Source: a virus. From it: 20,845 nt of DNA. Both the position numbers and the translations under genes were made by a program. The DNA lies in IMG/VR virus record IMGVR_UViG_3300047510_001467, positions 1-20,845 of that record, one strand, 5' to 3'. The notes beneath the pieces are model-generated. The model did not search any database and had not been told where the DNA came from. It was given only the letters and a program-made list of their open reading frames with translations. Positions 3,190 through 20,845 of the stretch are shown here, piece after piece. Each line of letters opens with the position of its first letter. Positions within the stretch are counted from its first letter, which is position 1.

Positions 3190-3438
3190 ATGGAACAATA
3201 CAAAAAATTGGTTGTCGCTTCAGGAAAGTACACCGTCAACGGAGAAGAGAAAACCCGTTGGATTGAAATCGGCCGAGTGCTCAAGGCACCTACCGGATTT
3301 AAAATCAAGCTTGACGCTATCCCTGTCGAGTGGAACGGATGGGCCGAAATGGTAGACATCGAGCGTAAGGACGCAGCCGGAAAGCCTGCACCTAAGAAAA
3401 CGCAATCAGTAGTAGAAGCAGACGACCTTCCTTTCTAA
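3190..3438 (+). CDS. Small SSB-like protein with acidic DDLPF tail
   Basis: An 82-aa protein with a short beta domain (KLVVASGKYTVNGEEKTRW, IGRVLKAPTGFKIKLDAIPV, then WAEMVDIER) followed by a flexible Lys/Pro segment and a C-terminal VVEADDLPF. The last five residues match the SSB C-terminal tip (DDDIPF in E. coli), which docks replication and repair proteins, so the protein probably binds ssDNA or mimics SSB. The fold is shorter than a standard OB domain and is not certain. It starts 28 bp after the previous gene behind an A/T-rich leader and ends right before the nuclease gene (TAA then GTG). Confidence 0.6.
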   Translation: MEQYKKLVVASGKYTVNGEEKTRWIEIGRVLKAPTGFKIKLDAIPVEWNGWAEMVDIERKDAAGKPAPKKTQSVVEADDLPF

Positions 3439-4528: not shown

Positions 4529-7500
4529 TCATTCGCCCCTATACTCTAAGAACTTCTCTAACGTCTTATCAGAGATAATAGTCTCACCAGAGCCATCCTC
4601 GTACTTCTGGATTTGCTGCAGGGCCTTCACAAGCGCCTCACGTCCATCCTTCTGTTCTATCTGAGTCAGAATCTCAGCACGCTTCTGTGGTGAATTAGCA
4701 CGTACAACTGTCTGAGCCTGCGGGCTTAGCATGTTCATCCGTGCAATCTCCGCAAAGTAGTATTTAGCCATGCTCTCAGCCTCATCAGAGGTCATGTCGT
4801 AGGACCTCGTGATGCGGTCTAACGCTTCTTTAGTGACATCCTTGTGGTTGTCAGCTTCCCAGCGTGATGCAATAGCCTTGATGTCTCTGCGCACACGTGA
4901 GCGAGTGTTTTCCTCGGCTGTAGACTTCTCTAGGCTGTCGTATCGGAATGCTGCCTGCCACCCAAGGTTGCCATCACGAACGATACGCTTGGTAACGCCG
5001 CCGCCGGCTTTCAAGATGTCTCCAATGTTTTCTGCTGGTCGGATAGTACCCTGAACCACACCTTCTTCCATTAGACCTTCGTAGCTAATGTTATCAGTAA
5101 CTGAGAACATCATTCTCAAGAAGTATTGATTGTCTACACGGGTAGCAAGCTTTTCGAACGCTGCCTGTAGCTGCTTAGGCTTGGCGCCAATCCCCTTACC
5201 CAATCTAACGAACGTGGCACGTGTACGGTCGTCGTACTTGTCGGTATCGGCAAGCTCTCCAAATCCTTCACGGAACACCTCGTCACCGGTGTAGGTGTCG
5301 TAGTTAGCGCTATACGCAATGTACGCACCAACCATTGGCACTTGACCAACCATACCGAGCATGGCGTCCACTACAGACTTGTTCTCGATTCCTTTTGCGG
5401 CAGACTGCCCCAATAATGGAATGTAGTATTCTGCTCCAAGAACTACTGCGCTCTTGAGGTTGCTTGGGTGACGGTCGCTGAACATCGGATTGACACTATC
5501 TGCAACAGCTTGAGTAAGTCTAACGAACGGAGCCATTTCATACGGTATACCAATCACAAACGCCTCTGGCACTGCGGACTTAGACCATCCCTGAACATAC
5601 TCGCCAGTGTTCTTGTCCTTCCACTTACCGTTAAGCACAACAATGTTTCTGTCCTTGATTTGTGGAGAGAAGTAGTCTAAAGCGTGTGGACGCTTTTCAC
5701 CGTTCTCATCGAACTCATCGTCCGGCTCACCAATCATGTTATTGAATGCCATGATGGCTGCATATCCAACTGCAAACTCGGCAATTTTCAAGAACGACCA
5801 AGCGTTTACCATGTTGTTGTCTTCAGAGACACGAGTTCCGAACATCTTGTTACCAGCGAGTGGTGAGATGTAGTAGACACTTGTTTCAATGGCACGAGTC
5901 GCTGCGTTGGTGTATGGCAAGAACTTCTCGACCATGTACGAAGCTTGTCCGCTGATGGCGTAATCCATGTGCTGACGGGCCTTGGCTGCCGCAAGCGTTA
6001 CCAATTCATCCTCAGTAAGATTTGGACGGGCGGCCTTTAGGTCACGGTACGTCTTCTCAAAGATGGCTAGACGGGTAATCTTCTCTGACTTCTCTTGGAG
6101 GAATAGCATTCCTTCTTTGATGTAAGTAAGAGCAAGTGATACCTTGTTAGCCTTGTCTCCAGTTCTGCGCTCCGTGATGCCCTTGGAAACATTCCGGAAC
6201 CCGAGTGGCGAATCCGAAACGAAGTCCATGGCGTAACCACCTTTTTCTGCGGCCTTAGACACGCTACGGTCTCCGAACAGTCTATTGACAGCGATTGGAG
6301 ATGCGTACTTGATGTAGTTAGCCATGCTACCCGTAAGGGTGTTGCCGAATGCGTTGGTGAAAGCGTTTACAAACAGGAAGTCACGGAACACGTTGACCGC
6401 AGCGAACGCAGGGTTTCCGATGGTTGCAGCAAGCTTAAGCCCGGTAGACCCAGTCGCCACACCAAGTAGCTCCATGAACATCTTCTGACCTTCGGTGCCA
6501 GCACCCCAGGTCTCAAGTCCACGCCATGTTTTGTAGAACTCCAAGTCTACACGCATTCTTACTACGTTGTTGTTCTTGTCAAAGAACTCAATCACCGTAG
6601 TTCCGGGTGCAATCTTTGGAGGGTATTGAATAACTCCGAAACGGTCACGCTTGATTGAACCGTCTTTGTTAAGCAACGGCTGCTCGATAGACAAAACATT
6701 GTTAGCTGGCGACGCCACAACGAAGTCGTACAGTCTTGCAGCTATCTCGTTTCTACGCATGGTGCGCTCGTGCGACACAATCGTTGCAGCAAATAGTGCG
6801 GTTGGGTCAGTAACCATCGCATCCTCAGTACCAGCGCCAAGCTTTTTAACGCCATTAGACGGGTTTTGTGACAGTACGCCAAGCTCAGACATCATCTCAC
6901 GGTCAACAAGTCGTTGCAGGACAATTCTCGGGCTGTACCCGTAGTCTTTTAGTGCATCGTAGATTCCTTGAGAGATGAGCCCACTGTCAAACTTCTCCTT
7001 TAGGATTCGTTTGGTTTCCTCAAACATCTTGTCTACAACGCTATTTGCGTACTTAGACAGCTCTGGATTGTCCTTCTTGCGCTGCTCGAGGTGCTCATTC
7101 GCCTGCTCGTATGTCATGCCGCCCGGATTTTTAATCGGGTCTTGAAGCTCCTGAATGCGAGTAGTCGAGCCAGTGATAACAGACACACGCTTAGCTAAGT
7201 CAGATGCCGTAGCTTCCACCTTAACGAGCTCAGATGTGTAGGTAAGGATATCCGAATTAAGTTGCGCCTGCTTGGCGAGGTCACCAGTGCGAATTGCGGC
7301 CTCAAGATTTCTTTCTGAGCGCTTGATGCGGGCACGAAGGTCCGAGCGGTACTCACGGGATGTTTCAAGCTCAGACTTAATCTGCTGAAGCGTAACCCCA
7401 GCAAGGGCGTCCTCTTTGCGCTTGTACTGCTTGGCAAGCATGGCATCACGACGGTCTTGAATCTCAATGATGGTGCGAGCCATCAATGTTTCTTCAACCT

Positions 7501-10500
7501 CTTGCATTTCCACGCTAGAAACGTTTAATACGTTTTTGCCAAACACCTCACGAAGCTTTTCCTCCGCAAGCTTAGAAGCGTAGATAGACTTACCACCCTC
7601 AGTGCGTACGTATGCTTGGAGCATTTCTGCAGCCTCAGCATTACGACCGTTTAGGTTCTTGTTGATGAAGTTGAAGATTCCAACCTTTTTGTCTAGCACA
7701 CCTTCACGGAATCTCTTGGCTACTGGGGCCTTTGCAGAATCAACAATTCTTCTTTGTTCAGAGCGAACGGTGTTGAACTTCTGGCTGAATGCAGTATTAG
7801 ACGGCTTGTACGAAGAGAATCTAACGTTTTCGTTATACTTCGGAGCAACCTTTCCTTCGGCAAGTTTAGCCTCGTAGTCCATCATTACTTGGTCTACCGG
7901 AGTGACGCCATTAGTCTTTGGCATGAACTGTGAAATCATTTCACCAGTCTTGGTCATCACATCACTGATAATGGTCTCTGGGGTAGACTTATCCGAGACA
8001 ATCACGTCTAGGTCAGTCATTCCGGTGAGCCCAAGTGGCTTCTCCACACCAGCACGCTCGAATACATCGTTCGTAAACTGATTCACGAACTCAGTAAGGT
8101 TCATCTCCTTGTTGCCCATAGACACACTGAAGTTGTCGTCGTTCACGAAGTAACGATTCAACTCTAGGTCAGCGATGTATCCGGGCTTGGGTACGAAGTT
8201 GTACGAAAGCTCATCAGCAAGTTTCTTGTTGATGGTGATTTCTGCAGAAGCTGCTGGCGTAGCACGTCTAACGAACTTGTCTGACGGAGCAAATACAATC
8301 TCGTTGTTGCGCTCGTTACCAATTGCGATGTGAGTGGCAACCGACTTAACAGCCTCCATTACCTGTGGGTTTGACCCCTCCGTCATGATGGCAACGGTAT
8401 ACTTGCCAAGTCCAGACTCAGTAGTTCTACGGATAGAAGCAATTGCGTTGTCTAGCTCCTCTTGGTTCGCCTTGCCATTCCTAGTGCTAACGTACAAGAA
8501 GTTAACATCCTTAAGAACAAGTTCTTGCGCAATGTAGCTGTTGTTCACAGTTACAAGTGCAATGTTTGTAAATCCGGGATTTGAAGACAATGCAGCGCTG
8601 CTGTTCAGAATGTGAACCTGCTCAAGCAATGCTTTAGGCAAGTTTAGTTCTCCAGCAGCAATGACGTTCCCGAATCCAAGGGTATTCAGTCTAATACCAG
8701 TAGGTCCAGTCTTTGCCGGAGTGTACTTGGCATATGTAACCGGAACCTTTTCGAAGCTGTCTCCGATAAGGTCGTAGTTATTTAGCGGAGGAACGAATGA
8801 GAACTTCTCTCCGTTGAGGATAATCTGACCACCGTAGCTATCGCCAAGCACGTCATTGAAGACCAAGTGAGACTGAAGGTCTGAGTTAGACGGTGCTGGG
8901 ATATCCGTTGGGTGGTTATGAATCGTAAAGATTTTATTCTCAGGCTGTTGCTTCTTAGTGTAGATAAGCTTCGCAAAGTCGTTCAACGCTACCTGACCAA
9001 ACATCTTGTTGGTGAAGACACGGTAGTCGACCAAGCGGCCATCCTTGTCTACCTCCACGATGATACCGTTCTCTTGAACAGTGCTGCGGAAAAAGCTAAA
9101 TAACTCAGCGATGTCTTTGATGTTGCCAAACTTGGAGCCGATTCTTGGCGCTTCGTCTAGGTTGATTTGACGTGCACGTACAAGGCCGCCCTCGCCAGAC
9201 ATAACCTCATCTGGAGATAGCCCCTTGATTTCTAGTGCAGACTCTAGATTTCCAGCCATCAACATTCCAGCAAGCGCAACTTCAGAACCCGCCATGCCCT
9301 CTTCAGCGAGGCTCATGGCCATCTCTGCCGCCACGTTTTTAGCTTCTGAGCCAACTGAAAACTCAACGTCTTCAATGTCGCTAGACACCACACGGGCAAG
9401 CTTGCTGATTGGCGACTCACCGTTGATGTACCCAAGCTTCTGAATAAATCCAAGCGGGTCAATGGTTGGAGCAGCACCTGGAACAACTCGAATCTCGGTG
9501 TTAGACGTAATCGCCTTGTCTACTATAGACATCATTAGCCCATGCACACGGTCGAATGCGTCCGGAGATGCAAAGTCGTACGTAAGGTTAATGTAGTTGT
9601 ACGCACCTTCCATGCTGCCCATTACGTAGGCATACTCAAGGAAGTCACGAGAGAATGCGTTGTTCTGAATTGGAGATATACCCTTGTCATTAAAATAGGC
9701 TTTGCCCATTCTATTGAATTCATTTACAAGCGAACCCTTAATGCTCTCAATGACACCCATTAGTTCCATAGCGACACTAAGCCCTTCAATAACAGTAGCG
9801 TCAAACTTGGCTTCCATGATGTCTTCGTACAGCATGTTCTTCTCCTCAGTGCTTAGGTCAGCGTATTGCTGGTCAATCTGAGCATGAATCAAATACTGCA
9901 TCTCTGTAAGGTCGGTCAGTCTAAAGACCTCAACGCCATCTTCGAGCGTCATTTCAATCAGCTCCTCGCCAAGCGAGGTCTTTGCAGTTACGATAGCCGT
10001 GCTAATCAAGTCCTTTTGGATGTTGTAACCGCCAACAAAGCTTGGGAACACAATAGAGCTAATCGTATTTGGATTCTCCACTGCTGGAAGATTCTCAAAT
10101 ACTTGATTCAACAATCCTGTAGGAATGAATGGACTGTATCGTGAAGCAAGACGGGTCTTGATTTCATCACGCTGCTTGACATCAAAGAAGTTGTACAGGC
10201 CAAGCTGCTCTGGAGTCATCTGTACGCTGTTGGCGTAGAACACGTGAAGTGCACGTAGGTAGTCTGCTACCGTTCCGTTCATTGCGTCTACTGCTGCGTT
10301 GAACTCAGCAGATAGGCCACCCTTCTCTTGCTTGTAGGTTCCAGGCTGGACACTGTTAGACTTCTCTGCAAACGCAATAACTCCACGCATAGCGCCAGAA
10401 GTGCGAATATCATCAGTGGCCTTAACCTGCTTGATGATGTTTTTAATCTTCTGGTTTACAGTATCAGATACTCTAGAGATAGGCGCTTGAACACTCATCT

Positions 10501-13500
10501 TAGACAGTCCCTCCTCGATGTCTTTAGCCACTGGGGCTTCTTTGGCAACGCTTACATTCTCACGACGGATGCGGGCCTTTTCATCGTTGAGTCTCTTGGC
10601 ACGGGCTGCAGCAACTTTTGCCTCACGAAGAAGCAAGTCAGTCTCCTCGTCAATAATAGCTGTAACGTCTTGAGACAAGTCTAGCTGGAGGGCCGCCATT
10701 CTGGTTTTAACCTCCTCTTGGAAGTCTAGCTCACCACTGTTGATTCGCTCCTGAAGCGCCTTGACAGATGCGTTGAACTTCTTCTTATCCGTGTATTTAG
10801 TCTCAATGAATACCTTGCGGCGTGGCTCACGCTCAGAAATGGTCATCGTGTTCGGATTGACCACTACGGCCACTTCTTTTCCACGCTTTCCTAGGTCACG
10901 AAGTAACTCAACGATGGTTAGGCCACCTTGCGCCTGAACACCCATTTGCTCTGCGGTGACCTCGGGTCGGGGCTTAGCTTCTACTGGAGTCTCTTCGGTT
11001 ACATTGTCAAACTTCTCACGGAGTTGGTCAGCAACGGTCTTCCGTCTCTCTGTTGGAAAGTTTCTAACATAGTCCACGGTAAAGTCAGACTCGTTCTTGA
11101 ATGCGTACCAACGAATGGTTCCGTCCTCTAGATAAGTACCACGACGTAGACGCTGGGGCTCGTAGACACGCCACTTCTTGCCGTCCTTCATCACCTCGAT
11201 TTGCTCAGTAACCTTTCTGCGGCGAGGAGCCTTGGTGGCAATGATGTCTTTTAGACTAAGCTTGGCAACAACGCCAAGAAGCGTAGACACCCTGTCCTTG
11301 TCTTCTCTAGCCTTAGCTGCAGCAGTTGCGTCTGCTGCGGTAGAAGCAGTTGCAGGTCCATCTTCTACGACTCTGGTAGGAGCTGGGGCAGCCTTTGGTG
11401 TAAACGGTTGTGGTTCGGGCTTAGTCTCCGTCTTCTTAAACTCAATGGTCGTGTATGGAGTAATAGCCTTTGCCGCTCCTTCGACAGAGTCAGATGTACC
11501 AACCACATTTCCATCAGTGTCCTTAGCGGTATAGGTTACATTCTTGTCTGAAGTCTTAGCTGCACGGTCACCGACAGTAGCTTCAATCGTGCCCATGATG
11601 TCACCGGTCTGGTTGTCCATAACCGTTTGAACTGGTATTTCACGTCCGGGGATGAGCTTCGCAATCTGGTCGTCGTACTTCTGATTGATTTTAGACTTGG
11701 CATCTTCAGAAGTAGCGGTAGCTAGTTCCGCCTTACGCTTAGACTCAATGGCAGCCTTCTTCGCTTTGAACTTATCGTCCTCAACGAACTTCTGGATGGG
11801 CTTGCCGTATACAACGACACGTTCACCCTTCTGTGGCGCCTGCGCTACTTCACGTGGCTTCTTGCGCTCGGGACGAGCTGGGGCTTCTTCTTTCTTGGCC
11901 TCTTGTTTTGGGGCTGGCGCTTCAGTCGGTGTACGTTTTACAAACTCAACCTTTGCGCCTTCTTTGAATGTCTGAGCAGCTTTTGTTGAGCTCTTTGCAG
12001 TGCCAACGGCATTGCCTTCAGCGTCTTTAATCTCGTAAACAGATTTTTTGCCCTTACCGGTTCTCTGGATAGTTCCAAGAACATCACCAGTCTCTTTGTC
12101 TACAATATTCCATCCACCGCTCTTGGCAGCTGGGGCAGCGACAAGCGTAGGTGCATCAGCCTTTGGAGCCTCACGTACTACCTCATCCTTCTCCTCGGTT
12201 TTCTTTTTGGGCTCACGCTTCTTAGACGTTGGAGCTTCTGCTACTGGAGCGGCAGGTACAGTAGCCGGTGCTGGAGCAGCGGGTGCGGCAACTGGAGCTA
12301 CTTCTGCTTGAGTCGCTTGAACATCTCCACCTGTTGCAGGCGCTTCTGGGCGTCCTTCTTCGATAGGAGTTTCGACAGCGGCTTCCCCTCCTTCGACAGG
12401 ACTTGGTACTTGCTCCCCTTTTTGCGTATCATCTCTTTTAAGTGCTTTAGTTAGTGCATCAATAGACTCCTCAGAAAAGAAGTCTTGTCTTTCAAGTTCG
12501 CCAATCGCTTCGTCAAGAGTAACTTCCTCGATGTTGTACATCTTGTCAGAAAGGGTGTTTAGACCCATGTACTCAAACAAAGTACCCAATGCACGGCGTG
12601 CACTTGGTGCGTTTTTGGTGTTGATTTTGGCCTCGAAAAGGTCAGCCATAAGTTCAGTAACTGCCTCGATTTCAAAGTCTTGGTCTGGGAAGACCTCCTT
12701 GATTGCAGCAGACCATTCGCCATACGTCTTAACGTCTTCGAGTTGAGCCTGTTGCTCTGGAGTAAGGTTGAATCTCTTAGCAAGGTCAGCAGCAGCACCT
12801 TTAGGCATTTCCACATCTTTGACAGCGCTGAACACCTCAGCAAAACCTTCTGGGTTGGAATTCTTTAGGAACTCAATGAATGGGTGGCTAGCCTCGTGAG
12901 CGTAGACATTATCAACGTAAGCATTTGTGTTTACGAAGATTGTATTTGTATTCTGGTCAAAGAACATTGCGCTGCGGCTAGGTCCGAAACGAGCAGTTTC
13001 CTGTGGGGCCACAACAAAACGAACATCACCGCCAGCTACTTGTGCCATGCCCTTAAGCTGCTCCATCATTCTACGAACGGTAGAACGCTGCTCTGGAGTT
13101 GGAGCCTTGTATAGTTTAGACAATACATCTGTGTAGCTAGCGCCAGAAAGTTCGCCAGCAGTGAACGTTGGGGCTTGTTCTCCACGAGTAGTCTCTGGAA
13201 TTGCTGCGCCAAACTCTTCGACCTGAGCTTCCATTCCTTCAACGATACCACGAACCTCGTCGTTAATCTTTTCAATCTCAGCCTGAACAGCAGGCTTCAG
13301 TGTCTCGTCAGCTTTTTCAAGCTCGGTGCGTAGGTCAAGCTTTTGCGACAAAAGGTCGAATACCTTCCTGCGTGCCTCAAGCTGATTGTAGCGATTTAGA
13401 GTGCGGCTAGGCATCATCTCTGCAACCATCTGAGCCTTGGCCATAGCGCCAATCTGCTCAGCGCCTTCAGTCTCAGTAATCTTACCTGCGCCAATAGCAT

Positions 13501-15268
13501 TGTTGATTGCGGTCATCTGCTCTTGGAACAGCTTTGGATTGCGTAGGGCCATCTCAAAGTTGTAGAACTCACCGTTCTCCATGAGGTCTCCGAGCTTGTT
13601 GTCACGGATAGCACCCGTAACCATGCTCCGTCCACCAATAATAATGGCTCCCATGCCCTCTTGAACGCCAGCCTTGTTGACTTCGTAGGCAATTTCACCA
13701 ATACCAGTGGGGTTGTTGAACATGTCCTTTTCGACAGCGGTATCGTAGATAGACTTTGTGGTCACATCCGCAAGCTGTTGTAAGGCTCCAGTTTCGTATT
13801 CTGCAGCAAAACCGGTTGCGGCACGGATGCCAAGGTTTGCAGTGATACTTCTAGCTTCGGCAGCGGCAATACGCTCTAGGGCCACTTTCGTTGGCGTGCC
13901 AACAGGAAGCTTCTTAATTACATTTAAAGCAATGTTTTTTACAATCGACTTGTTGGCAACAAGATTTCTAAAGCCCAAACGCTCGAGAGAAGCCATAATT
14001 ACGCCGGTCGTAGACTTTAGAAGAAGTTTGTGCTCCTCTGGGATTTGTGCCAACTCTGCGTCAGACTCAATTTCGTCAGCCATGAATCCGTACATCTGTC
14101 CGGTCATGCCAACCATTCCGGGCGTCAACATTGCTGGAACAGACTGCATTGCGCCAACGTATGCGCCACCAAGCCAAGAGCTGTTTGATAGTCTATTGAC
14201 GTACTCTGGTGATGCAATAGCGCCGACAGGAACGCCGGGTCCGCCTACCAATGATAAGACTCTTAGGTAATCTTCGTATCCCTCTCTTGCTCCCTGAAAA
14301 GACTGAGACACACTTCTTCTCGCTCCTTCTTCTAGCTGGGATAAATCTTTTTGTGGTGCGCCAGCGACTGCTTTGTTAGAAAGCGCAACTCCACGACCAC
14401 CATTAATCATGGCCTCAAGAGCAAAATCTGCAACAATTTGACCCATTCCAGTAACTGCGTCACCGGTTCCTTTCATTAATGAGTAGAATCCTGCACTTAC
14501 CCAGTTACCGTTTTCATCAAACGCCTCACGTGGGGCAGACTTTTCTGCCTCTTTGTATATTTGAGATGCAAGCGCAGCCTCGTACTCACCAATCTTATTG
14601 GTCAGTTCTCCTGATACCTCGTTGTAGCGAAGCTTTTCATTTTCAGTAAAGTCTAACCGGGCTTGGAAGTCCTTGAATTTGGCAAGGTCGTCCTCATTAG
14701 AGAATGCATACGTATTGTTGTCAATAGTGACAGCCCCACGAGCGGTGGCGTCTGCAATAAACTCGTCGAATCCGGTGGTAATTTCTGTAGACAGCGCAGA
14801 GACCTTGGCGCCAAGGTCCTTTTGCATTTTAATTCCAGTTTCTGTAGACGTCTTAAGCTCGGCAAGGCGCTCTGGAGATGCTACAGGCGTGACAAAGCCA
14901 CGTACAGTTTTCGATACAGCCGAAGGGTCAGTCCACGAAGTAGATGGGCCAGCGGAAGCGAATGCGTCGGATGGAGTAAGTTTTTTTTTTACATCAACCG
15001 GAGTGAATCCCGTAGACATCGGTGCGCCTGCCTGAGGGGCTGCAGCTGGAACAACTGGCTGGCCGGATACGATTTTGGTGAACTTGTCAAAGTCACCAAC
15101 CATGTTTTGACCGCCTAATCCCTTGTAGATATTTTCTACGTACGCAGGGTCGCTTGCGAGGTTAGTCTTGAAGTCATCAAGGCTTACACCTTGTGATTTA
15201 AATCCACCGAGGGCTTCATAGATACCAGTTAGGTACTGCTCCCTGCTAAGTTTTTTAGGCTCAGGCAT
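4529..15268 (-). CDS. Giant 3579-aa polyvalent virion protein with zincin and RadC-like JAB motifs
   Basis: Half the window is one gene. Seen: two N-terminal 'Y..(G/N)IY..LGG' repeats (12-38, 43-68); hydrophobic Gly-rich helices near 260-420; a zincin-type HEASH (791-795) with downstream EAVTELMADLF offering a Glu ligand (868 or 872); a Pro/Ala/Lys linker (955-1050); a duplicated domain (1051-1112, 1213-1281); a RadC-like JAB domain with HNHPTDIPAPSNSD (2117-2130) and all metal residues; a coiled coil (about 2606-2700); and a C-terminal region with NPAFAAVNVFRDF (2952 on) plus a hydrophobic helix near 3160-3180, like LPD38-type large polyvalent proteins. Such proteins are thought to be ejected with phage DNA to act in the cell. 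It follows nozzle and internal-protein genes, the T7 gp16 position. AGAG precedes the ATG by 4 nt. Roles of the two peptidase-like motifs are inferred; no polymerase motifs were found. Confidence 0.8.
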   Translation of the reverse strand: MPEPKKLSREQYLTGIYEALGGFKSQGVSLDDFKTNLASDPAYVENIYKGLGGQNMVGDFDKFTKIVSGQPVVPAAAPQAGAPMSTGFTPVDVKKKLTPSDAFASAGPSTSWTDPSAVSKTVRGFVTPVASPERLAELKTSTETGIKMQKDLGAKVSALSTEITTGFDEFIADATARGAVTIDNNTYAFSNEDDLAKFKDFQARLDFTENEKLRYNEVSGELTNKIGEYEAALASQIYKEAEKSAPREAFDENGNWVSAGFYSLMKGTGDAVTGMGQIVADFALEAMINGGRGVALSNKAVAGAPQKDLSQLEEGARRSVSQSFQGAREGYEDYLRVLSLVGGPGVPVGAIASPEYVNRLSNSSWLGGAYVGAMQSVPAMLTPGMVGMTGQMYGFMADEIESDAELAQIPEEHKLLLKSTTGVIMASLERLGFRNLVANKSIVKNIALNVIKKLPVGTPTKVALERIAAAEARSITANLGIRAATGFAAEYETGALQQLADVTTKSIYDTAVEKDMFNNPTGIGEIAYEVNKAGVQEGMGAIIIGGRSMVTGAIRDNKLGDLMENGEFYNFEMALRNPKLFQEQMTAINNAIGAGKITETEGAEQIGAMAKAQMVAEMMPSRTLNRYNQLEARRKVFDLLSQKLDLRTELEKADETLKPAVQAEIEKINDEVRGIVEGMEAQVEEFGAAIPETTRGEQAPTFTAGELSGASYTDVLSKLYKAPTPEQRSTVRRMMEQLKGMAQVAGGDVRFVVAPQETARFGPSRSAMFFDQNTNTIFVNTNAYVDNVYAHEASHPFIEFLKNSNPEGFAEVFSAVKDVEMPKGAAADLAKRFNLTPEQQAQLEDVKTYGEWSAAIKEVFPDQDFEIEAVTELMADLFEAKINTKNAPSARRALGTLFEYMGLNTLSDKMYNIEEVTLDEAIGELERQDFFSEESIDALTKALKRDDTQKGEQVPSPVEGGEAAVETPIEEGRPEAPATGGDVQATQAEVAPVAAPAAPAPATVPAAPVAEAPTSKKREPKKKTEEKDEVVREAPKADAPTLVAAPAAKSGGWNIVDKETGDVLGTIQRTGKGKKSVYEIKDAEGNAVGTAKSSTKAAQTFKEGAKVEFVKRTPTEAPAPKQEAKKEEAPARPERKKPREVAQAPQKGERVVVYGKPIQKFVEDDKFKAKKAAIESKRKAELATATSEDAKSKINQKYDDQIAKLIPGREIPVQTVMDNQTGDIMGTIEATVGDRAAKTSDKNVTYTAKDTDGNVVGTSDSVEGAAKAITPYTTIEFKKTETKPEPQPFTPKAAPAPTRVVEDGPATASTAADATAAAKAREDKDRVSTLLGVVAKLSLKDIIATKAPRRRKVTEQIEVMKDGKKWRVYEPQRLRRGTYLEDGTIRWYAFKNESDFTVDYVRNFPTERRKTVADQLREKFDNVTEETPVEAKPRPEVTAEQMGVQAQGGLTIVELLRDLGKRGKEVAVVVNPNTMTISEREPRRKVFIETKYTDKKKFNASVKALQERINSGELDFQEEVKTRMAALQLDLSQDVTAIIDEETDLLLREAKVAAARAKRLNDEKARIRRENVSVAKEAPVAKDIEEGLSKMSVQAPISRVSDTVNQKIKNIIKQVKATDDIRTSGAMRGVIAFAEKSNSVQPGTYKQEKGGLSAEFNAAVDAMNGTVADYLRALHVFYANSVQMTPEQLGLYNFFDVKQRDEIKTRLASRYSPFIPTGLLNQVFENLPAVENPNTISSIVFPSFVGGYNIQKDLISTAIVTAKTSLGEELIEMTLEDGVEVFRLTDLTEMQYLIHAQIDQQYADLSTEEKNMLYEDIMEAKFDATVIEGLSVAMELMGVIESIKGSLVNEFNRMGKAYFNDKGISPIQNNAFSRDFLEYAYVMGSMEGAYNYINLTYDFASPDAFDRVHGLMMSIVDKAITSNTEIRVVPGAAPTIDPLGFIQKLGYINGESPISKLARVVSSDIEDVEFSVGSEAKNVAAEMAMSLAEEGMAGSEVALAGMLMAGNLESALEIKGLSPDEVMSGEGGLVRARQINLDEAPRIGSKFGNIKDIAELFSFFRSTVQENGIIVEVDKDGRLVDYRVFTNKMFGQVALNDFAKLIYTKKQQPENKIFTIHNHPTDIPAPSNSDLQSHLVFNDVLGDSYGGQIILNGEKFSFVPPLNNYDLIGDSFEKVPVTYAKYTPAKTGPTGIRLNTLGFGNVIAAGELNLPKALLEQVHILNSSAALSSNPGFTNIALVTVNNSYIAQELVLKDVNFLYVSTRNGKANQEELDNAIASIRRTTESGLGKYTVAIMTEGSNPQVMEAVKSVATHIAIGNERNNEIVFAPSDKFVRRATPAASAEITINKKLADELSYNFVPKPGYIADLELNRYFVNDDNFSVSMGNKEMNLTEFVNQFTNDVFERAGVEKPLGLTGMTDLDVIVSDKSTPETIISDVMTKTGEMISQFMPKTNGVTPVDQVMMDYEAKLAEGKVAPKYNENVRFSSYKPSNTAFSQKFNTVRSEQRRIVDSAKAPVAKRFREGVLDKKVGIFNFINKNLNGRNAEAAEMLQAYVRTEGGKSIYASKLAEEKLREVFGKNVLNVSSVEMQEVEETLMARTIIEIQDRRDAMLAKQYKRKEDALAGVTLQQIKSELETSREYRSDLRARIKRSERNLEAAIRTGDLAKQAQLNSDILTYTSELVKVEATASDLAKRVSVITGSTTRIQELQDPIKNPGGMTYEQANEHLEQRKKDNPELSKYANSVVDKMFEETKRILKEKFDSGLISQGIYDALKDYGYSPRIVLQRLVDREMMSELGVLSQNPSNGVKKLGAGTEDAMVTDPTALFAATIVSHERTMRRNEIAARLYDFVVASPANNVLSIEQPLLNKDGSIKRDRFGVIQYPPKIAPGTTVIEFFDKNNNVVRMRVDLEFYKTWRGLETWGAGTEGQKMFMELLGVATGSTGLKLAATIGNPAFAAVNVFRDFLFVNAFTNAFGNTLTGSMANYIKYASPIAVNRLFGDRSVSKAAEKGGYAMDFVSDSPLGFRNVSKGITERRTGDKANKVSLALTYIKEGMLFLQEKSEKITRLAIFEKTYRDLKAARPNLTEDELVTLAAAKARQHMDYAISGQASYMVEKFLPYTNAATRAIETSVYYISPLAGNKMFGTRVSEDNNMVNAWSFLKIAEFAVGYAAIMAFNNMIGEPDDEFDENGEKRPHALDYFSPQIKDRNIVVLNGKWKDKNTGEYVQGWSKSAVPEAFVIGIPYEMAPFVRLTQAVADSVNPMFSDRHPSNLKSAVVLGAEYYIPLLGQSAAKGIENKSVVDAMLGMVGQVPMVGAYIAYSANYDTYTGDEVFREGFGELADTDKYDDRTRATFVRLGKGIGAKPKQLQAAFEKLATRVDNQYFLRMMFSVTDNISYEGLMEEGVVQGTIRPAENIGDILKAGGGVTKRIVRDGNLGWQAAFRYDSLEKSTAEENTRSRVRRDIKAIASRWEADNHKDVTKEALDRITRSYDMTSDEAESMAKYYFAEIARMNMLSPQAQTVVRANSPQKRAEILTQIEQKDGREALVKALQQIQKYEDGSGETIISDKTLEKFLEYRGE
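11426..12118 (-). repeat. Duplicated ~60-70-aa domain in the giant protein
   Basis: Residues 1051-1112 and 1213-1281 share a pattern: D..TGD..GTI, a charged turn, KD..GN.VGT, a small helix with AA, and a final EFxK strand. Each copy also holds two similar beta hairpins (TGD..GTI and GN.VGT). About 100 residues of Lys/Glu/Pro-rich linker separate them. The duplication is at protein level; DNA identity is low, so it is old. The family is not recognised. Confidence 0.7.
14981..14990 (-). repeat. A10 run in the coding strand of the giant gene
   Basis: Ten T on the + strand are ten A in the mRNA, covering the last base of Val93 and Lys94-96. Runs of this length are prone to polymerase slippage. 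Gaining one A leads to a stop about 17 codons on; losing one leads to a stop within about 40 codons. Confidence 0.8.
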
Positions 15269-15305: not shown

Positions 15306-15337
15306 ATTATATTAGTCTTCTATCTCTAGATTGTCTA
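15306..15337 (-). promoter_or_regulatory. Possible sigma70-like promoter for the giant gene
   Basis: On the - strand a TAGACA box (15332-15337) is followed after 17 bp by TAATAT (15309-15314), overlapping a perfect TATAAT (15306-15311, 20-bp spacing). It lies across the end of the 540-aa gene. One -35 mismatch and a choice of two -10 boxes make this weak, and Bacteroidota promoters differ (TAnnTTTG), though ATAATTTG follows here. Confidence 0.25.
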
Positions 15338-16934
15338 CATTAAAGGCAGACTTGCTACCGGACGGGGTGTCTTTAGACTTCGTGACTCCGGGGCGACTGT
15401 TGTTGGCATTGTTGTAGTGCCCACGCAGTGCGTTAATTGTTGAACCCGTGCGAATCATTCGTGAATCCATACCAATTCCCAATGCGAGCTGAACAGCTGC
15501 AAACTCATCGCCATCAAACACTTGGTTTGGAGCAATGTCTACAACCTTAATCTGCTTCTCGGCACCCTCTGGTGAACCGGGCGAAACTTGACTCAAGGCT
15601 CCTTGAACAGCAACGGAGTTACTTAACTGATTGTCACTAAGCATGCTAATCATGGTTGCTATACTGCTAGCGCTTTGACCGTCAGCTTTAATCATGACAC
15701 CTCCACGCATCTTGAGCTGCTCTCCAGATACCGCCCATTCATTGGGAAGAATAAAGTATTGCTCACCGTTGTAACGAACAGGTACTGGTGTCTTTCTTGT
15801 TTTTTCCGGAACAGACATGAACTGAACTCCGCCAACAATATTTGTCGGGAAGCTCACAACATCCTTCTTGGAGCTGGTTCCGAACATGATTCCACCACCA
15901 GTGTACTGGAATGACTGGGTCATTAGACCTTCTGGCACAGACGTAAGATTGTACTTGCCCTCAGCAGCATTGTCTAAAAGCTGACCCATGCGTAGATTCT
16001 TGGCACGGTATGCCTCATCTGGGGTCATAGACTCACGCTCCTTAATTACCTCACGGTAGAACATAGATGACGCAGGGTTGTCGTCCGCAAATCCATAAAG
16101 ACCAACACGCTGAACCTCATCCCAGTCAGCTGGTAGTTCTTGGCCAGTGCGCTCAAATCTTTCGGTAACACGACGGTACGCCTCAAAAGTTACAGCGTCA
16201 TCTGCAATGCGAGAGAACAATGGGTTCTTGATGGTCTCGTTGTAAATCTCTTCAGTAATCAAACCACCTTCAGCACGCTTGGCACGGAAACCACCACCCG
16301 GAGCACGCTCAAACAATTGGCGAGCTGTTTCTGTCTGCGCAATGTAATCACCCCTGCGAAGGTCTTCTACGCTAACGCCATATGCCTTAACAAATTCTTC
16401 CGTAGCCTTAGCCTCATTAATAAGGTAAGACCCAAATGGCATCTGAGTGTATGCGCCAACCTCGTTAATCCGAGCATAAGCACGAGCCTTACTCTCTGGG
16501 TCAAGGCCCATTTTGGACAATGCAAGTGCATTAAATTCTTGGACACGCTCTGGGATATACCCACGGTTGTCTGAGTCTTTTACGAGTTCGTCACCAAGCT
16601 TGTATCCACCATTGATGGTCTGGGCCAGTGAGTCCAGACGGCTAGCTGTTTTTGAAATTTCAACAACGTTAAGCTCACCACTTTTAGCAAGTGACTGTAG
16701 ACGCTCAAGCTCTTGGTTTTGGATTTGGTCAAATCCAGCACGGCCACGGGCGTCAATATTACGGTCCTTAACAAGAGAGGTCATAGACATCTTGTTCATT
16801 TCCATTTCTTGGTCTGCTCTAATTTTTGCAGCACGGAGTCCCAACGACATTTGCTGCATCTCTTGACGCTGACGAGCCAAGAGTGGTGCAGTCGTGTTGA
16901 AGACTACGGCAAATCCTTTCTTACTTGGCGTCAT
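15312..16934 (-). CDS. 540-aa probable internal virion (ejection) protein, gp15-like position
   Basis: A 540-aa protein without a family I recognise by motif. Residues 1-110 are helical and charged (ARQRQEMQQMSLGLRAAKIRA, QNQELERLQSLAKSG), the middle is mixed alpha/beta, and about 330-430 is beta-rich (GGGIMFGTSS, VVSFPTNIVGGVQFM, VPVRYNGEQYFILPNEW). The end is acidic (NLEIED). No signal peptide or membrane helix is seen. It starts with ATG overlapping the stop of the 205-aa gene (ATGA), behind an AGGA site only 2 nt away, so it is translationally coupled. Lying between a gp14-like gene and a giant gp16-position gene, it probably takes the T7 gp15 place in the ejectosome; T7 gp15 is 747 aa. 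Role inferred from order only. Confidence 0.65.
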   Translation of the reverse strand: MTPSKKGFAVVFNTTAPLLARQRQEMQQMSLGLRAAKIRADQEMEMNKMSMTSLVKDRNIDARGRAGFDQIQNQELERLQSLAKSGELNVVEISKTASRLDSLAQTINGGYKLGDELVKDSDNRGYIPERVQEFNALALSKMGLDPESKARAYARINEVGAYTQMPFGSYLINEAKATEEFVKAYGVSVEDLRRGDYIAQTETARQLFERAPGGGFRAKRAEGGLITEEIYNETIKNPLFSRIADDAVTFEAYRRVTERFERTGQELPADWDEVQRVGLYGFADDNPASSMFYREVIKERESMTPDEAYRAKNLRMGQLLDNAAEGKYNLTSVPEGLMTQSFQYTGGGIMFGTSSKKDVVSFPTNIVGGVQFMSVPEKTRKTPVPVRYNGEQYFILPNEWAVSGEQLKMRGGVMIKADGQSASSIATMISMLSDNQLSNSVAVQGALSQVSPGSPEGAEKQIKVVDIAPNQVFDGDEFAAVQLALGIGMDSRMIRTGSTINALRGHYNNANNSRPGVTKSKDTPSGSKSAFNVDNLEIED

Positions 16935-17548
16935 CGTCCTGTTCTTCTCATTAAATCTTGACGAGTGCGAAATCCCGGAGTGTTTCTAAAATCTGACGCA
17001 AATGGGTCAGTCGTTGAAGTCGTGCCGCCAACCATAGAGTTCTGAGCATACACGCCAGTCTGCAATGCCCCGAAGATGTTCTGCATACCAGCAGAAATTA
17101 GTTGGTCACGTGCAGCATTTTCCTGCATAACCAGACTGTTTTTAAGGCCCTGCATTCTTTCTTTAGCTCCCGCAGTCGCCATTTTTGCGCTAGCAAGACC
17201 ACGGAGCTCTCCAGCTTTTTCTCTTACCTCAGACTGGTACAAACTAGCGATGGCAGATTGTTGACCTCTAGACGCCATTTGCTGGGCCCGTAGAAGTCCT
17301 GTTGGACTATTTGATGTGCGAATTAATGCAGCACGAGTCGAAGCTGCGTCAGAGGCCAAAGATTGACGGGCCAATCCATATGCCGCAGAGGTAGACTGAG
17401 ATGCGTTTTGCATTGCGCTCTCGGCCTCTTTAAACTCTGGTTGGATAGACGTGTCTATTTTCTGACGAGGTTTGGCTAACCCGCCAATAAATTGCGCCCC
17501 TCCGATGAGGGCTTGAGCTCCAAGTAATCCTAGTGTAAGTGGGTCCAT
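16931..17548 (-). CDS. 205-aa internal virion protein, gp14-like
   Basis: A 205-aa protein with an opening hydrophobic, Gly-rich segment (MDPLTLGLLGAQALIGGAQ) and then a long Ala/Ser/Gln-rich helical body (ASQSTSAAYGLARQSLASDA, GLLRAQQMASRGQQSAIASL), ending in a Gly/Thr-rich, Arg-rich tail. This makeup and length match the T7 gp14 type of ejectosome protein (196 aa), which inserts in the outer membrane during DNA ejection; sequence identity is not claimed. ATG 17548 follows the TAA of the nozzle-like gene with no gap and has an AGGA site 7 nt upstream. Its order between nozzle-like and larger internal proteins also fits. Confidence 0.6.
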   Translation of the reverse strand: MDPLTLGLLGAQALIGGAQFIGGLAKPRQKIDTSIQPEFKEAESAMQNASQSTSAAYGLARQSLASDAASTRAALIRTSNSPTGLLRAQQMASRGQQSAIASLYQSEVREKAGELRGLASAKMATAGAKERMQGLKNSLVMQENAARDQLISAGMQNIFGALQTGVYAQNSMVGGTTSTTDPFASDFRNTPGFRTRQDLMRRTGR

Positions 17549-20500
17549 TTAGTGTCCTGTTGAATCTTTAACTTCTGTGTAAATCCTTTTCACGCTGAAT
17601 GTACTTGGCATTCTTAGCAAAGATAGTAATTTACTTCCTCGTACTCGCTTGCCAGTCAGAATGTTTCCACTCAGCTTATCACGCTTAAAACTTGAGCGGA
17701 AGAAGTCTTCTTGCTCCACGTAATCCGCAGACACAAGCTCAGTTGCGTGGTTCTCACTTTGAAGCCTAGACTTAGCCGGAGCTACGTCAGTCTCAAGAGA
17801 ATGCGACACCGGCACCGATACCACATTTTGGTAATCAAGGTAGTAAGAGAATGCCGTTGGGTACGTAATACCATAAAAAGTAGCGACATTAGACTGATGA
17901 TGCTTATACATCAACCCATTCTGGAAGGTGTACAGCGTGTTGTTCACAATCGCAGAAGCCTCTGAGAAGTACATGTCGTATCCTCTCCATTTGTTTGCAG
18001 ATTCATTGAACGCATGCGTTAATGGCATGTGATGATGAACTTGCGAATAGTCGTGTCCGTACTTTTTAATTTGAATGTTGGTGTCTGGCGATACAACAGG
18101 CTCTGGAAGTCCGGTAATCAACAAAGAGCCAGAAGCCGAGGTTGGTACAAATCTTACATACAATACGCTTGTAGACGGGAACGTAGCGGTAGTAGAAGTA
18201 TATACTGGGTTTCCTCCAAAAGAAACACGTATGTTTTTCAATGGAAATCCAGTCAGTGTAGCTATCCTTACCTCAACAACATTATCAAGGCTCAACCCAG
18301 ACAAAGAGATATTTACTGAGCCGCCAAGAGTCGATACAGAGGCGTTATATAATGTCACAGTTGAGTAGTCAGCCAATGAAAAGGTATTGACCCTAAGTGG
18401 GTCAGATACGCTCAGAAGATATTCATTCTGTATGGGGTCAAAGTGACCAACTAAAGATGATTGAGTAGATAGTCCGGTAGTAATTTTATTAAGGGTAGAC
18501 TTATACTTATTTTGCGAAATTGGTATAACTCCATTTCTACCATATCTCAATACCTCCGCCTTGTTGGCGTCGTACCAATAAATGAATCCACCACGTTCTA
18601 CAACGGTTTCAGGGTGCTTGGTTCCGTAACCTCCCTGAAGGACATTAAACGTTCCAATAACGTTCCTATCAATTACAAGGTCGGCATTTTCAGAAGACCC
18701 AACTAGCTGAGATTCACCAATATATATTGAAGCAGTATTTACTTCACCAATCGCTAGCATTACGGTACCAATACTTTCTACCTTAGATGCAAGCTGAAGC
18801 TTATTGACCTGCACCAATTCACTGGGTAGGCGGACCTCTTCGACAGCATCAACAAAGTTCAGATTGTTGTTTTTGGTCCCAGATAGATACACGCCACTAA
18901 ATGAAATAGCGGTCTGATTTTGTTCGCTAGAGAGCTGCTGTGTGAAGTCAACATACGTAATAGAACGACCGAAGAACGAGCGATACGTGCGCACACCAAA
19001 AAGGCTTTCCCCGTGAGAGTTAACACAAAGAATTGTTTTATCAGCAGGAGTCGGGTCGAATGCAGCCGGTACAGTTTTGTGTACGACCTTGGTTAATGAC
19101 GTATCTCCAGAAATTTTAAGGGTAGTTGGTAGACTGGTAACATCAAAAACAAGCCCAGTTTCACGATATACAGAAGTGTCTACAGAAGCCCTTCTAAAGA
19201 CTGTAGCAACACCATAATCACAATAGTAGTTGTTGTCAGAAACTCCAGAGCCATCCACGTAAAGAAGATTGCTTGATTCGATAGTGTAACCAAGATAATC
19301 AGGTAGGCCGCCAAGTTGTGGAAGGTCGTGAATCTTAATAACAAGACGCTGGTCTTGTTGCGCAATCACTTCTCCAGTAACAAGCTCTTCATGCCATGAA
19401 CCAACGGAGCTTCCGACTTCAGATGTTCTATAGAAAGTTACTCTGATGTAATCTCCTGGAACAAAGTCCCACCCAAGCCCATTCTTTACGGCATCACGAA
19501 GATTCAACGCAAAGTATTTAATTTCAGTCTTATGCGTCTCGCTAAGAAAGCGTTGAGAGTTTGCAAAGGCGTATGTTCCGTCAGCAAGCTTTACACCAAA
19601 CTCAAGTCCGAACTGGTATTTGACGGAATTAACAGTCCCGTTTGAGTTTAGGCTGTCTGCATAGACAGACTCAAGAGGGAACTGGATAAAATCAGTAAAT
19701 GCCTTATTATCTGAAATAACAACCTCACACGTTTTTGCCCAGCTGGGAATCGTGTTAAATGCAGCATTTGAAAGATTGAAGCTTATGCTATCCGGAAGGG
19801 TAGTGTGGTCTTCATGCGGCAAATATGGACGTCGAACACTAGGAGATATTAATTGAATATCTGTTCCAGAACCGTCACGGAATGGAATGGTGGCTGAAAT
19901 GTTTAACTTCTTAACTCCAGAAGTTCTTCCGAACTCATCACGGTAGACAACTCCAATGTCAAATATAGAACCTTCAATGAAGCACGCTGGACGCTCTGTT
20001 CCAGAAGTTTGGAATGTGATAGATGGGGTTAAGCCAGTACCTTCAGCCTGTGTTGCATTATCGGCAAGCCAGTTTTTGTAGTTTGAGAAAAACAACCTAT
20101 TCTTTGCAGACGACAAAGCCTTAACGTCAAATGGCGCAGTAGCGTGAATGTATCCAGTCTCAATGTCTGCAATAACCTGATAGGTATTGGTTGCGGTATA
20201 GTCTGCGACGATTTGAGTCGACCCACTGTTGTGGTTGTTAAACACTGACTGACCACGGATGTCTTTGACTACGAAATATGTATTTGATTCGTCATTGTAT
20301 CCAATGATTTCCAAAGATTCAACCCCGGCATGCACCTTTTGCGCTGTCGGAATTGCTATAGTAATCTTGTTGATGTTGTATTCATCAATGTCGTGGACGT
20401 TCTTTATGATGGAAGACGGCGATAACGCTGAAATTCTACCATCAGCATAAATGTATCTGTAGTAGAACTTTAAGAACTGACGAGCCACCACAATGTTTGC

Positions 20501-20845
20501 GGAGCCGGTACTCACAACGGTGATGCTGGGAGCAAAAACAGGGGGCAGTACATTTAGTCTAACCCTTGAGGCATCTACGCCCGTTGGGACGCTTGATGAC
20601 CAGTAGTCTATATCTATAGCCCTTACTTCTCCGGTTCCAGTAGAATATACAAGGAAGTTGCTGACGATTGAGATTGCGGTGATTCTTGAAAGCTGGAATC
20701 CCAATGCATTACTGGTAACGAACTGGCCGTTTGATACCAATTTGTTGAATCCACCGAAATGGTCGTACTCATAGATTCCGTGATTGGCTGCATTGTCATG
20801 GTTAAATATGAAAAAATAAATCTTAGAATCTTTGTCGCTAGAAAT
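17549..20845 (-). CDS. Tail nozzle/stabilisation-like structural protein (5' partial)
   Basis: The frame stays open to the window edge: the codons above 20740 read KIYFFIFNHDNAANHGIYEYD, clear coding sequence, so the TTG at 20740 is not the start and at least 1098 residues are present. The protein is beta-rich throughout, with FLKFYYRYIYADGRISALSP and GDYIRVTFYR-like strands. The 'yyFiyN...hgIyeyd' opening and the 'YRYIYADG..SalSP' motif are like the stabilisation/nozzle proteins of crAss-like and other short-tailed phages, related in role to T7 gp12. It would form the distal tube through which DNA and the internal proteins pass. It ends TAA directly before the ATG of the gp14-like gene. Exact family is uncertain. 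Confidence 0.65.
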   Translation of the reverse strand: MSSDKDSKIYFFIFNHDNAANHGIYEYDHFGGFNKLVSNGQFVTSNALGFQLSRITAISIVSNFLVYSTGTGEVRAIDIDYWSSSVPTGVDASRVRLNVLPPVFAPSITVVSTGSANIVVARQFLKFYYRYIYADGRISALSPSSIIKNVHDIDEYNINKITIAIPTAQKVHAGVESLEIIGYNDESNTYFVVKDIRGQSVFNNHNSGSTQIVADYTATNTYQVIADIETGYIHATAPFDVKALSSAKNRLFFSNYKNWLADNATQAEGTGLTPSITFQTSGTERPACFIEGSIFDIGVVYRDEFGRTSGVKKLNISATIPFRDGSGTDIQLISPSVRRPYLPHEDHTTLPDSISFNLSNAAFNTIPSWAKTCEVVISDNKAFTDFIQFPLESVYADSLNSNGTVNSVKYQFGLEFGVKLADGTYAFANSQRFLSETHKTEIKYFALNLRDAVKNGLGWDFVPGDYIRVTFYRTSEVGSSVGSWHEELVTGEVIAQQDQRLVIKIHDLPQLGGLPDYLGYTIESSNLLYVDGSGVSDNNYYCDYGVATVFRRASVDTSVYRETGLVFDVTSLPTTLKISGDTSLTKVVHKTVPAAFDPTPADKTILCVNSHGESLFGVRTYRSFFGRSITYVDFTQQLSSEQNQTAISFSGVYLSGTKNNNLNFVDAVEEVRLPSELVQVNKLQLASKVESIGTVMLAIGEVNTASIYIGESQLVGSSENADLVIDRNVIGTFNVLQGGYGTKHPETVVERGGFIYWYDANKAEVLRYGRNGVIPISQNKYKSTLNKITTGLSTQSSLVGHFDPIQNEYLLSVSDPLRVNTFSLADYSTVTLYNASVSTLGGSVNISLSGLSLDNVVEVRIATLTGFPLKNIRVSFGGNPVYTSTTATFPSTSVLYVRFVPTSASGSLLITGLPEPVVSPDTNIQIKKYGHDYSQVHHHMPLTHAFNESANKWRGYDMYFSEASAIVNNTLYTFQNGLMYKHHQSNVATFYGITYPTAFSYYLDYQNVVSVPVSHSLETDVAPAKSRLQSENHATELVSADYVEQEDFFRSSFKRDKLSGNILTGKRVRGSKLLSLLRMPSTFSVKRIYTEVKDSTGH

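Follow-up and report, generated by a model that had tools for sequence, protein, structure and literature searches.

The DNA analysed here, called the window below, is the whole stretch of 20,845 nt, which is the entire IMG/VR record IMGVR_UViG_3300047510_001467, a linear fragment. It probably derives from a short-tailed virus of aquatic bacteria. Four genes follow one another on the minus strand and are transcribed in the order tail protein, 205-aa gene, 540-aa gene and, last, a giant gene. Convergent on the giant, the plus strand carries replication genes (RecE-like, SSB-like, DnaB-like helicase and VRR-NUC). The genes of the minus strand are:

17549..20845, minus strand: tail/virion structural protein, truncated by the contig end (phrog_14478 virion structural, E 2.6e-22)
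16931..17548, minus strand: 205-aa gene at the gp14 position (gp14-like size and order), with a hydrophobic stretch at residues 6-24, at the N-terminus
15312..16934, minus strand: 540-aa gene at the gp15 position, 68% identical in contig G004
4529..15268, minus strand: giant gene, 3579 aa, starting with ATG and with no internal stop; ejection/polyvalent-type protein at the gp16 position

The giant gene and its neighbours

The giant had been described beforehand as a single polypeptide of 3579 aa, and this holds: the reading frame is uninterrupted, orthologues exist, and dN/dS for the gene is ∼0.13 (with dS near saturation). An orthologue of 3416 aa is found at the same place in contig G004, and the two proteins are 59-69% identical across two long blocks. 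The gene is also present in a near-complete relative, contig G005 (61.9 kb), which supplies the gene order of the ∼62 kb genome; both ends of this contig fall within the giant gene, with ∼20 residues missing in between. Different parts of the protein evolve at different rates, with a low dN/dS of 0.08 in the C-terminal module and one of 0.34 in a linker rich in A, P, E and K. The ORF is thus a real gene under purifying selection. The fact that its parts differ in their closest relatives could point to an assembly chimera of unrelated genes, but this reading is rejected as virtually excluded because orthologues keep the order along the whole protein in contigs of 18.9 and 61.9 kb that are independent of each other, while three shorter contigs match portions of it at 83-99%; orthologues and dN/dS likewise rule out a chance ORF.

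In T7-like ejection operons, a gp14-like gene (181-240 aa) and a gp15-like gene (431-982 aa) are followed by a larger gp16-like ORF (PMC8954989). The series in the window has the order of T7 gp12-gp14-gp15-gp16, and the sizes fit this published layout except for that of the giant (PMC8954989). The gp14 and gp15 roles suggested for the 205- and 540-aa genes are assigned by order and size, because such proteins hardly conserve sequence; neither product has detectable sequence similarity to T7 proteins, and DNA and protein searches with the 540-aa gene against 50,697 phage records gave no match.

Relatives with virion proteins recorded by MS/MS are found among Cellulophaga phages. In the record of phage phi40:1, gp97-gp101 are annotated from experimental MS/MS, gp101 being a giant of 1691 aa; in the record of phi18:3 the same applies to gp120, gp121 and the 1935-aa gp123. 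The tail protein of the window is related to phi40:1 gp97 (MS/MS) and to a protein of Panino. By position, the 205-aa gene matches phi40:1 gp99 and phi18:3 gp120, and the 540-aa gene matches phi40:1 gp100 and phi18:3 gp121, both detected by MS/MS. The same order with a terminal giant also occurs in Panino, phi46:3, phi38:1, Tenacibaculum phage Gundel_1 and ctfjg026 (Manatee Spring podovirus, giant of 3859 aa), and further related IMG/VR contigs encode giants of 2266-3902 aa downstream of the tail-protein block. Two two-step links connect the giant itself with the MS/MS-detected proteins. Its C-terminal module is found in phi46:3, whose N-terminal half is 90% identical to phi18:3 gp123, and its zincin is found in Gundel_1 gp74, whose N-terminal domain matches phi40:1 gp101. 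From gene order and these MS/MS-detected relatives, it is highly probable that the giant is an ejection-class protein of the virion.

It is worth noting how the positional homologue in Panino, CDS0069 (PP540027.1; L016:18229-23718), is represented in the database. It is annotated as a tRNA methyltransferase, but Pfam finds no tRNA methyltransferase domain in it, and the label is likely a misannotation.

Two metal-site domains

Pfam and PHROGs scans of the whole giant return just a sub-threshold RadC match and a weak UvsW.1 match. From the N- to the C-terminus, the following parts can be told apart:

15065..15247, minus strand: N-terminal pair of ∼30-aa elements, residues 8-68, like the N-terminal tag ORF phi46:3 gp119
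13589..14251, minus strand: N-terminal domain common to other zincin-bearing giants, residues 340-560 (profile matches)
12452..13096, minus strand: predicted zincin-type metallopeptidase domain, residues 725-939 (leave-out profile, AF2, VIA-align)
12884..12898, minus strand: HEASH, HExxH zinc site, residues 791-795
12665..12667, minus strand: E868, candidate third zinc ligand
11309..12391, minus strand: A/P/E/K-rich linker with duplicated domain, residues 960-1320 (by composition; fast-evolving)
11909..12106, minus strand: duplicated domain, copy A, residues ∼1055-1120
11405..11623, minus strand: duplicated domain, copy B, residues ∼1216-1288
10589..11311, minus strand: basic, highly conserved segment, residues 1320-1560
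8798..9139, minus strand: predicted RadC-type JAB/JAMM domain, residues 2044-2157 (leave-out profile, PF04002, AF2 model against RadC 2qlc)
9071..9073, minus strand: E2066, candidate catalytic Glu of the JAMM motif (column >90% conserved in 38 sequences)
8879..8920, minus strand: HNHPTDIPAPSNSD, residues 2117-2130, the HxHx7Sx2D part of the JAMM motif (sequence and alignment)
8234..8701, minus strand: conserved segment after the JAB domain, residues 2190-2345
4532..7696, minus strand: C-terminal module, residues 2525-3579
5147..5548, minus strand: sub-threshold LPD38 match, residues 3241-3374

The HEASH motif had already been proposed in the preliminary description to mark a zincin, and several lines of evidence now bear this out. 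A zincin profile from which the window and its orthologue were left out finds the giant with E 4e-9 (32 bits; the best of 200 shuffled copies reached 5 bits), and H791, E792, H795 and E868 show no variation in any of the 60 aligned relatives. The AlphaFold2 model has a mean pLDDT of 76, with ∼90 for the core around the site. In VIA-align, the 17 top rows are lethal-factor-type folds at Z 6.3-7.4, a range where a common arrangement can suffice and where Z alone is no proof, followed by zincins such as N4 gp50, IrrE, thermolysin and others; the comparison with the zincin (C1) domain of N4 gp50 (9pnt) gives Z 4.6 with 169 residues aligned. Foldseek alone finds no PDB match with E < 0.2, and the viral structure library gives none with E < 0.004, several of its rows (probability near 1) being large phage structural or internal proteins. 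A PDB sequence search with the zincin profile gave no relevant match and no sequence link to N4 gp50. Motif, profile and fold combined make the zincin assignment a good one, and the predicted structure backs the fold moderately. This zincin has relatives in at least 80 viral loci, mostly in giants of ∼2700 aa. The clade is hardly covered by Pfam, where DUF6782 touches 3 of 60 members (best E 6e-5). Among 80 zincin ORFs, there is none with the C-terminal module and none with a JAB domain.

A few other domains were seen in giants at such loci. In Gundel_1 gp74 (L384:12109-19557) there is a weak match to GNAT acetyltransferases (E 0.002) between the N-terminal domain and the zincin, which, going by this match, may be another cargo. 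The 3443-aa giant of contig G012 (L172) has a weak ART-PolyVal match after the zincin, at residues 1355-1410 (E 0.0013, below the cut-off). DUF7178 (PF23802) occurs at the giant locus in three otherwise different giants, those of G029 (L177), G010 (L171) and G022 (L175), and is above the cut-off in G029 and G010.

The second metal site, for which a complete RadC-like JAB motif had been claimed at residues 2117-2130, could be confirmed as well. The JAMM motif E...HxHx7Sx2D is complete (E2066, H2117, H2119, S2127 and D2130), and a profile built on 36 RadC domains of viral contigs other than the window and its orthologue finds the giant with E 9e-12 (41 bits; best shuffle 3.4 bits). PF04002 itself scores 14.9-20.7 bits in the giant and 26.7-28.2 in orthologues, against a curated cut-off of 22.1. 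The core of the AF2 model has a pLDDT of ∼90 and matches Chlorobium RadC (2qlc) with Z 12.8 at 2.7 Å over 118 residues; JAMM deubiquitinases and bacterial BubCD are matched at Z ∼9. The alignment used as input for the model held RadC rows, so that the structural match cannot count as independent of the sequence match. Structure prediction backs the JAB fold strongly. The worry that the two motifs might lie in folds other than zincin and JAB is thus answered for both by AF2 models and structure comparison. Cellular bacterial RadC and other JAMM proteins have the JAB fold and the complete JAMM motif, as does the giant; cellular RadC differs in reading HNHPSG where the giant has HNHPTD, and in the giant the domain sits inside a 3579-aa protein of the virion class. 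Searches by peptide patterns found JAB relatives in the same two viral contigs only, and none in genome contigs.

Remaining segments and the C-terminal module

The N-terminal residues 8-68 resemble phi46:3 gp119 (shuffle z 9.5). Within the giant, the self-repeat of the two elements is weak (p 0.006); in the giants of phi46:3, ctfjg026 and G013 it is a clear tandem repeat. Residues 340-560 matched 13 ORFs, including L210, L255 and L190, with E as low as 1.7e-34. The duplicated domain that had been noted in the preliminary description is real: copies A and B align locally with a score of 109 against 30 ± 6 for shuffles (z 13). Copy A is present in the orthologue and copy B is missing there, so the duplication is specific to the lineage of the window. 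The basic segment at residues 1320-1560 is 70-85% identical to the orthologue, with no match in Pfam or in the fetched loci, and the segment at 2190-2345 has ∼55-60% identity and an AF2 pLDDT of 30-67.

Two observations concern the N-terminal tag in other phages. In phi46:3 (L007:16119-16439) and phi18:3 (L383:3310-3633), the tag ORF and the giant occupy different frames that meet at a run of nine A, with the second frame already open shortly before this run; the junction is a candidate for slippage-coupled expression or for a homopolymer sequencing error. The Bacteroides phage BKO1-TP3 has a 16.7 kb gene, gp55 (L385; ∼5550 aa), which is annotated as DarB-like antirestriction and bears the N-terminal tag of phi46:3 gp119 (41% identity, E 2e-3).

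The C-terminal module is common to Maribacter phage Panino, Cellulophaga phage phi46:3 and contigs G020 and G022 (BLAST E 1e-22 to 5e-11, and a whole-module profile), and in part to Pelagibacter phage HTVC010P. No link was found to phi38:1 gp101, and a PDB sequence search with the module profile gave no relevant match and connected the module neither with T7 gp16 nor with the C2 domain of N4 gp50. An LPD38-like C-terminus had been proposed for the giant, and this stands in part. The portion shared with HTVC010P lies directly ahead of the sub-threshold LPD38 match in the giant, and directly precedes a full LPD38 domain (169.5 bits) in that phage. PF18857 (LPD38) itself reaches 16.3-17.8 bits on the giant (17.8 at residues 3241-3374) against a curated cut-off of 27, and a profile-profile comparison of the C-terminus with two good LPD38 domains is negative (probability 0.3%). 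Because of these two results the giant is not filed as LPD38, and its membership is not established. A mark of gp16-class proteins is transmembrane helices close to the C-terminus; in the giant, hydropathy analysis shows weak hydrophobic peaks alone (1.3-1.45), at residues 3157-3175 and 3299-3317.

The giants of phi18:3 and phi46:3 have N-terminal halves that are 90% identical, yet the C-terminal module is present in phi46:3 only, a direct demonstration of module exchange. The giant of the window unites modules that are otherwise found in separate sets of giants; such proteins shuffle modules. In phi46:3 itself, gp120 and gp121 both align, in order, with the C-terminal module of the giant, and the open frame of gp121 reaches well back beyond its annotated start (L007:20600-21120); the two look like a single gene split by a frameshift.

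The preliminary description had expected many segments to be undescribed, and this is the case. In the loci searched, no relative from beyond the lineage was detected for residues 69-339, 561-724, 940-2039 and 2171-2524, apart from a weak match in L215 at ∼560-690, and DNA and protein searches of the 50,697 phage records with the middle of the giant, the JAB domain alone or the N-terminal 75 aa gave no match. In the loci covered, about half of the giant is without relatives beyond its own lineage.

Known systems and the proposed role

Like T7 gp16 and its class, the giant is the last and largest product of a gp14-gp15-gp16-like operon after a tail protein, and its relatives are virion proteins. 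It differs from T7 gp16 in being 2.7 times longer and in carrying a zincin and a JAB domain; no transglycosylase domain and no sequence similarity to gp16 were found. The ejected N4 gp50 has ∼3500 aa with a membrane-spanning N-terminal domain, a linker of ∼100 aa and a HExxH domain (PMC12633501). The giant shares with it the length of ∼3500 aa, the multi-domain build, a flexible linker after the N-terminal part and a HExxH zincin of matching fold, but has in addition a RadC-type JAB and a different C-terminal module. The length near that of the N4 virion RNA polymerase, with polymerase motifs missing, had been pointed out before; in line with this, Pfam and PHROGs scans of the giant show no RNA polymerase family. 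The giants of Pachyviridae, Pervagoviridae and related phages (phi46:3 gp119-121, phi18:3 gp123, phi40:1 gp101, Gundel_1 gp74 and Panino CDS0069) share the gene position and either the C-terminal module (phi46:3, Panino) or the zincin (Gundel_1). They differ in their size of 1691-2482 aa, in that no JAB was found, and in the modules swapped among them.

Polyvalent proteins of phages also combine unrelated enzymatic domains, including zincins, in one long chain (Iyer et al. 2017, PMC5512222). The giant belongs with them in having at least two domains of unrelated activity in one chain, the zincin and the RadC-type JAB, both backed by leave-out profile and fold. It departs from those described there in having RadC, in an LPD38 match below the cut-off, and in the lack of a described family for most of its segments. 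Iyer et al. list RadC for conjugative elements only, and LPD38 for phages only (PMC5512222). In viral contigs, the strict RadC motif is found in at least 120, and in ORFs of >1000 aa in at least 19. Among the matches listed, a HExxH string occurs in 7 of the 15 largest RadC-bearing ORFs, six of them plausible; by profile, these HExxH sites are not of the zincin clade of the giant. One giant (L306) combines RadC (102 bits) and LPD38 (82 bits) with ART-PolyVal, an N6-methylase and a piece of a helicase. A unique combination of zincin and RadC is ruled out by these other IMG/VR giants, so that the combination has precedents. What is new in the architecture is its arrangement; the type is known, and the family is larger than described.

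Taken as a whole, the giant is best read, with a probability of about 0.7, as the third and largest ejection protein, in the gp16 position, of a podovirus of ∼62 kb with relatives among Flavobacteriia phages. It would be packed in the head and exit through the tail with its domains strung out one after another, in the manner proposed for N4 gp50 (PMC12633501). The N- and C-terminal modules would aid DNA entry, like T7 gp16 and N4 gp50, and the middle would carry two enzymes into the cell. Both metal sites are complete in their residues, and both enzyme activities are predicted; an action on host defence, as suggested for polyvalent proteins in the preliminary description, is conjectural. The chances are about even that nucleic acid or nucleotides are the substrate of the JAB domain at an early stage of infection; being RadC-type, the domain is more likely to be such an enzyme than a deubiquitinase. 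The role favoured for the zincin, a proposal that we regard as tentative, is to cut the giant itself during or after delivery, releasing segments across the adjoining flexible linker. Self-processing is among the roles favoured for such zincins by Iyer et al. (PMC5512222), but it is not a given, because N4 gp50 is packaged uncut despite its zincin (PMC5512222).

The same linker next to the zincin would also suit a maturation protease that trims the giant or neighbouring proteins ahead of packaging or in the course of it, as suggested for phage P1 DdrB; in that case no peptidase would be delivered to the host. P1 DdrB has a C-terminal zincin and is processed before packaging (PMC5512222). Set against this are the whole packaging of N4 gp50 and the presence of the zincin clade in many giants regardless of their other domains, which fits delivery equally, and we consider a maturation role unlikely. 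A head or tape protein with a purely mechanical function, in which zincin and JAB are inherited passengers with no catalytic use, would agree with the relatives of 1691-1935 aa that are virion proteins and in which neither domain was found. This is more doubtful still, as no metal-site residue has been lost from any of the 60 zincins or from the JAB copies of the two lineages, and the JAB core is ∼57% identical between the lineages. The complete JAMM site and the model's matches to deubiquitinases and BubCD would allow the JAB to be an isopeptidase that strips the ubiquitin-like tags put on proteins by bacterial defence, and not a nucleic-acid enzyme; RadC stands out clearly as the best match (Z 12.8; PF04002), and the RadC clade has been argued to have no groove for the ubiquitin tail (PMC5512222), which makes this a poor prospect. 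Slimmer again are the chances of a scheme in which the ejected chain brings two pre-made metalloenzymes, the zincin frees the JAB, and the JAB strips the ubiquitin-like tags added by conjugation-based bacterial defences such as CBASS Cap2, Bil or Bub. If true, the virion would bring an anti-conjugation enzyme along with its DNA.

For the reading of the giant as an ejection protein, the consequences are of a more general kind. Polyvalent proteins, which are known mostly from prediction, are placed in the ejection operon of aquatic podoviruses that form a widespread group, and RadC-type JAB domains are shown to occur in phage giants, beyond the conjugative elements of the 2017 survey. With culturable relatives in Cellulophaga and Tenacibaculum, the packaging state of these giants, their passage through the tail and the roles of their enzymes become testable.
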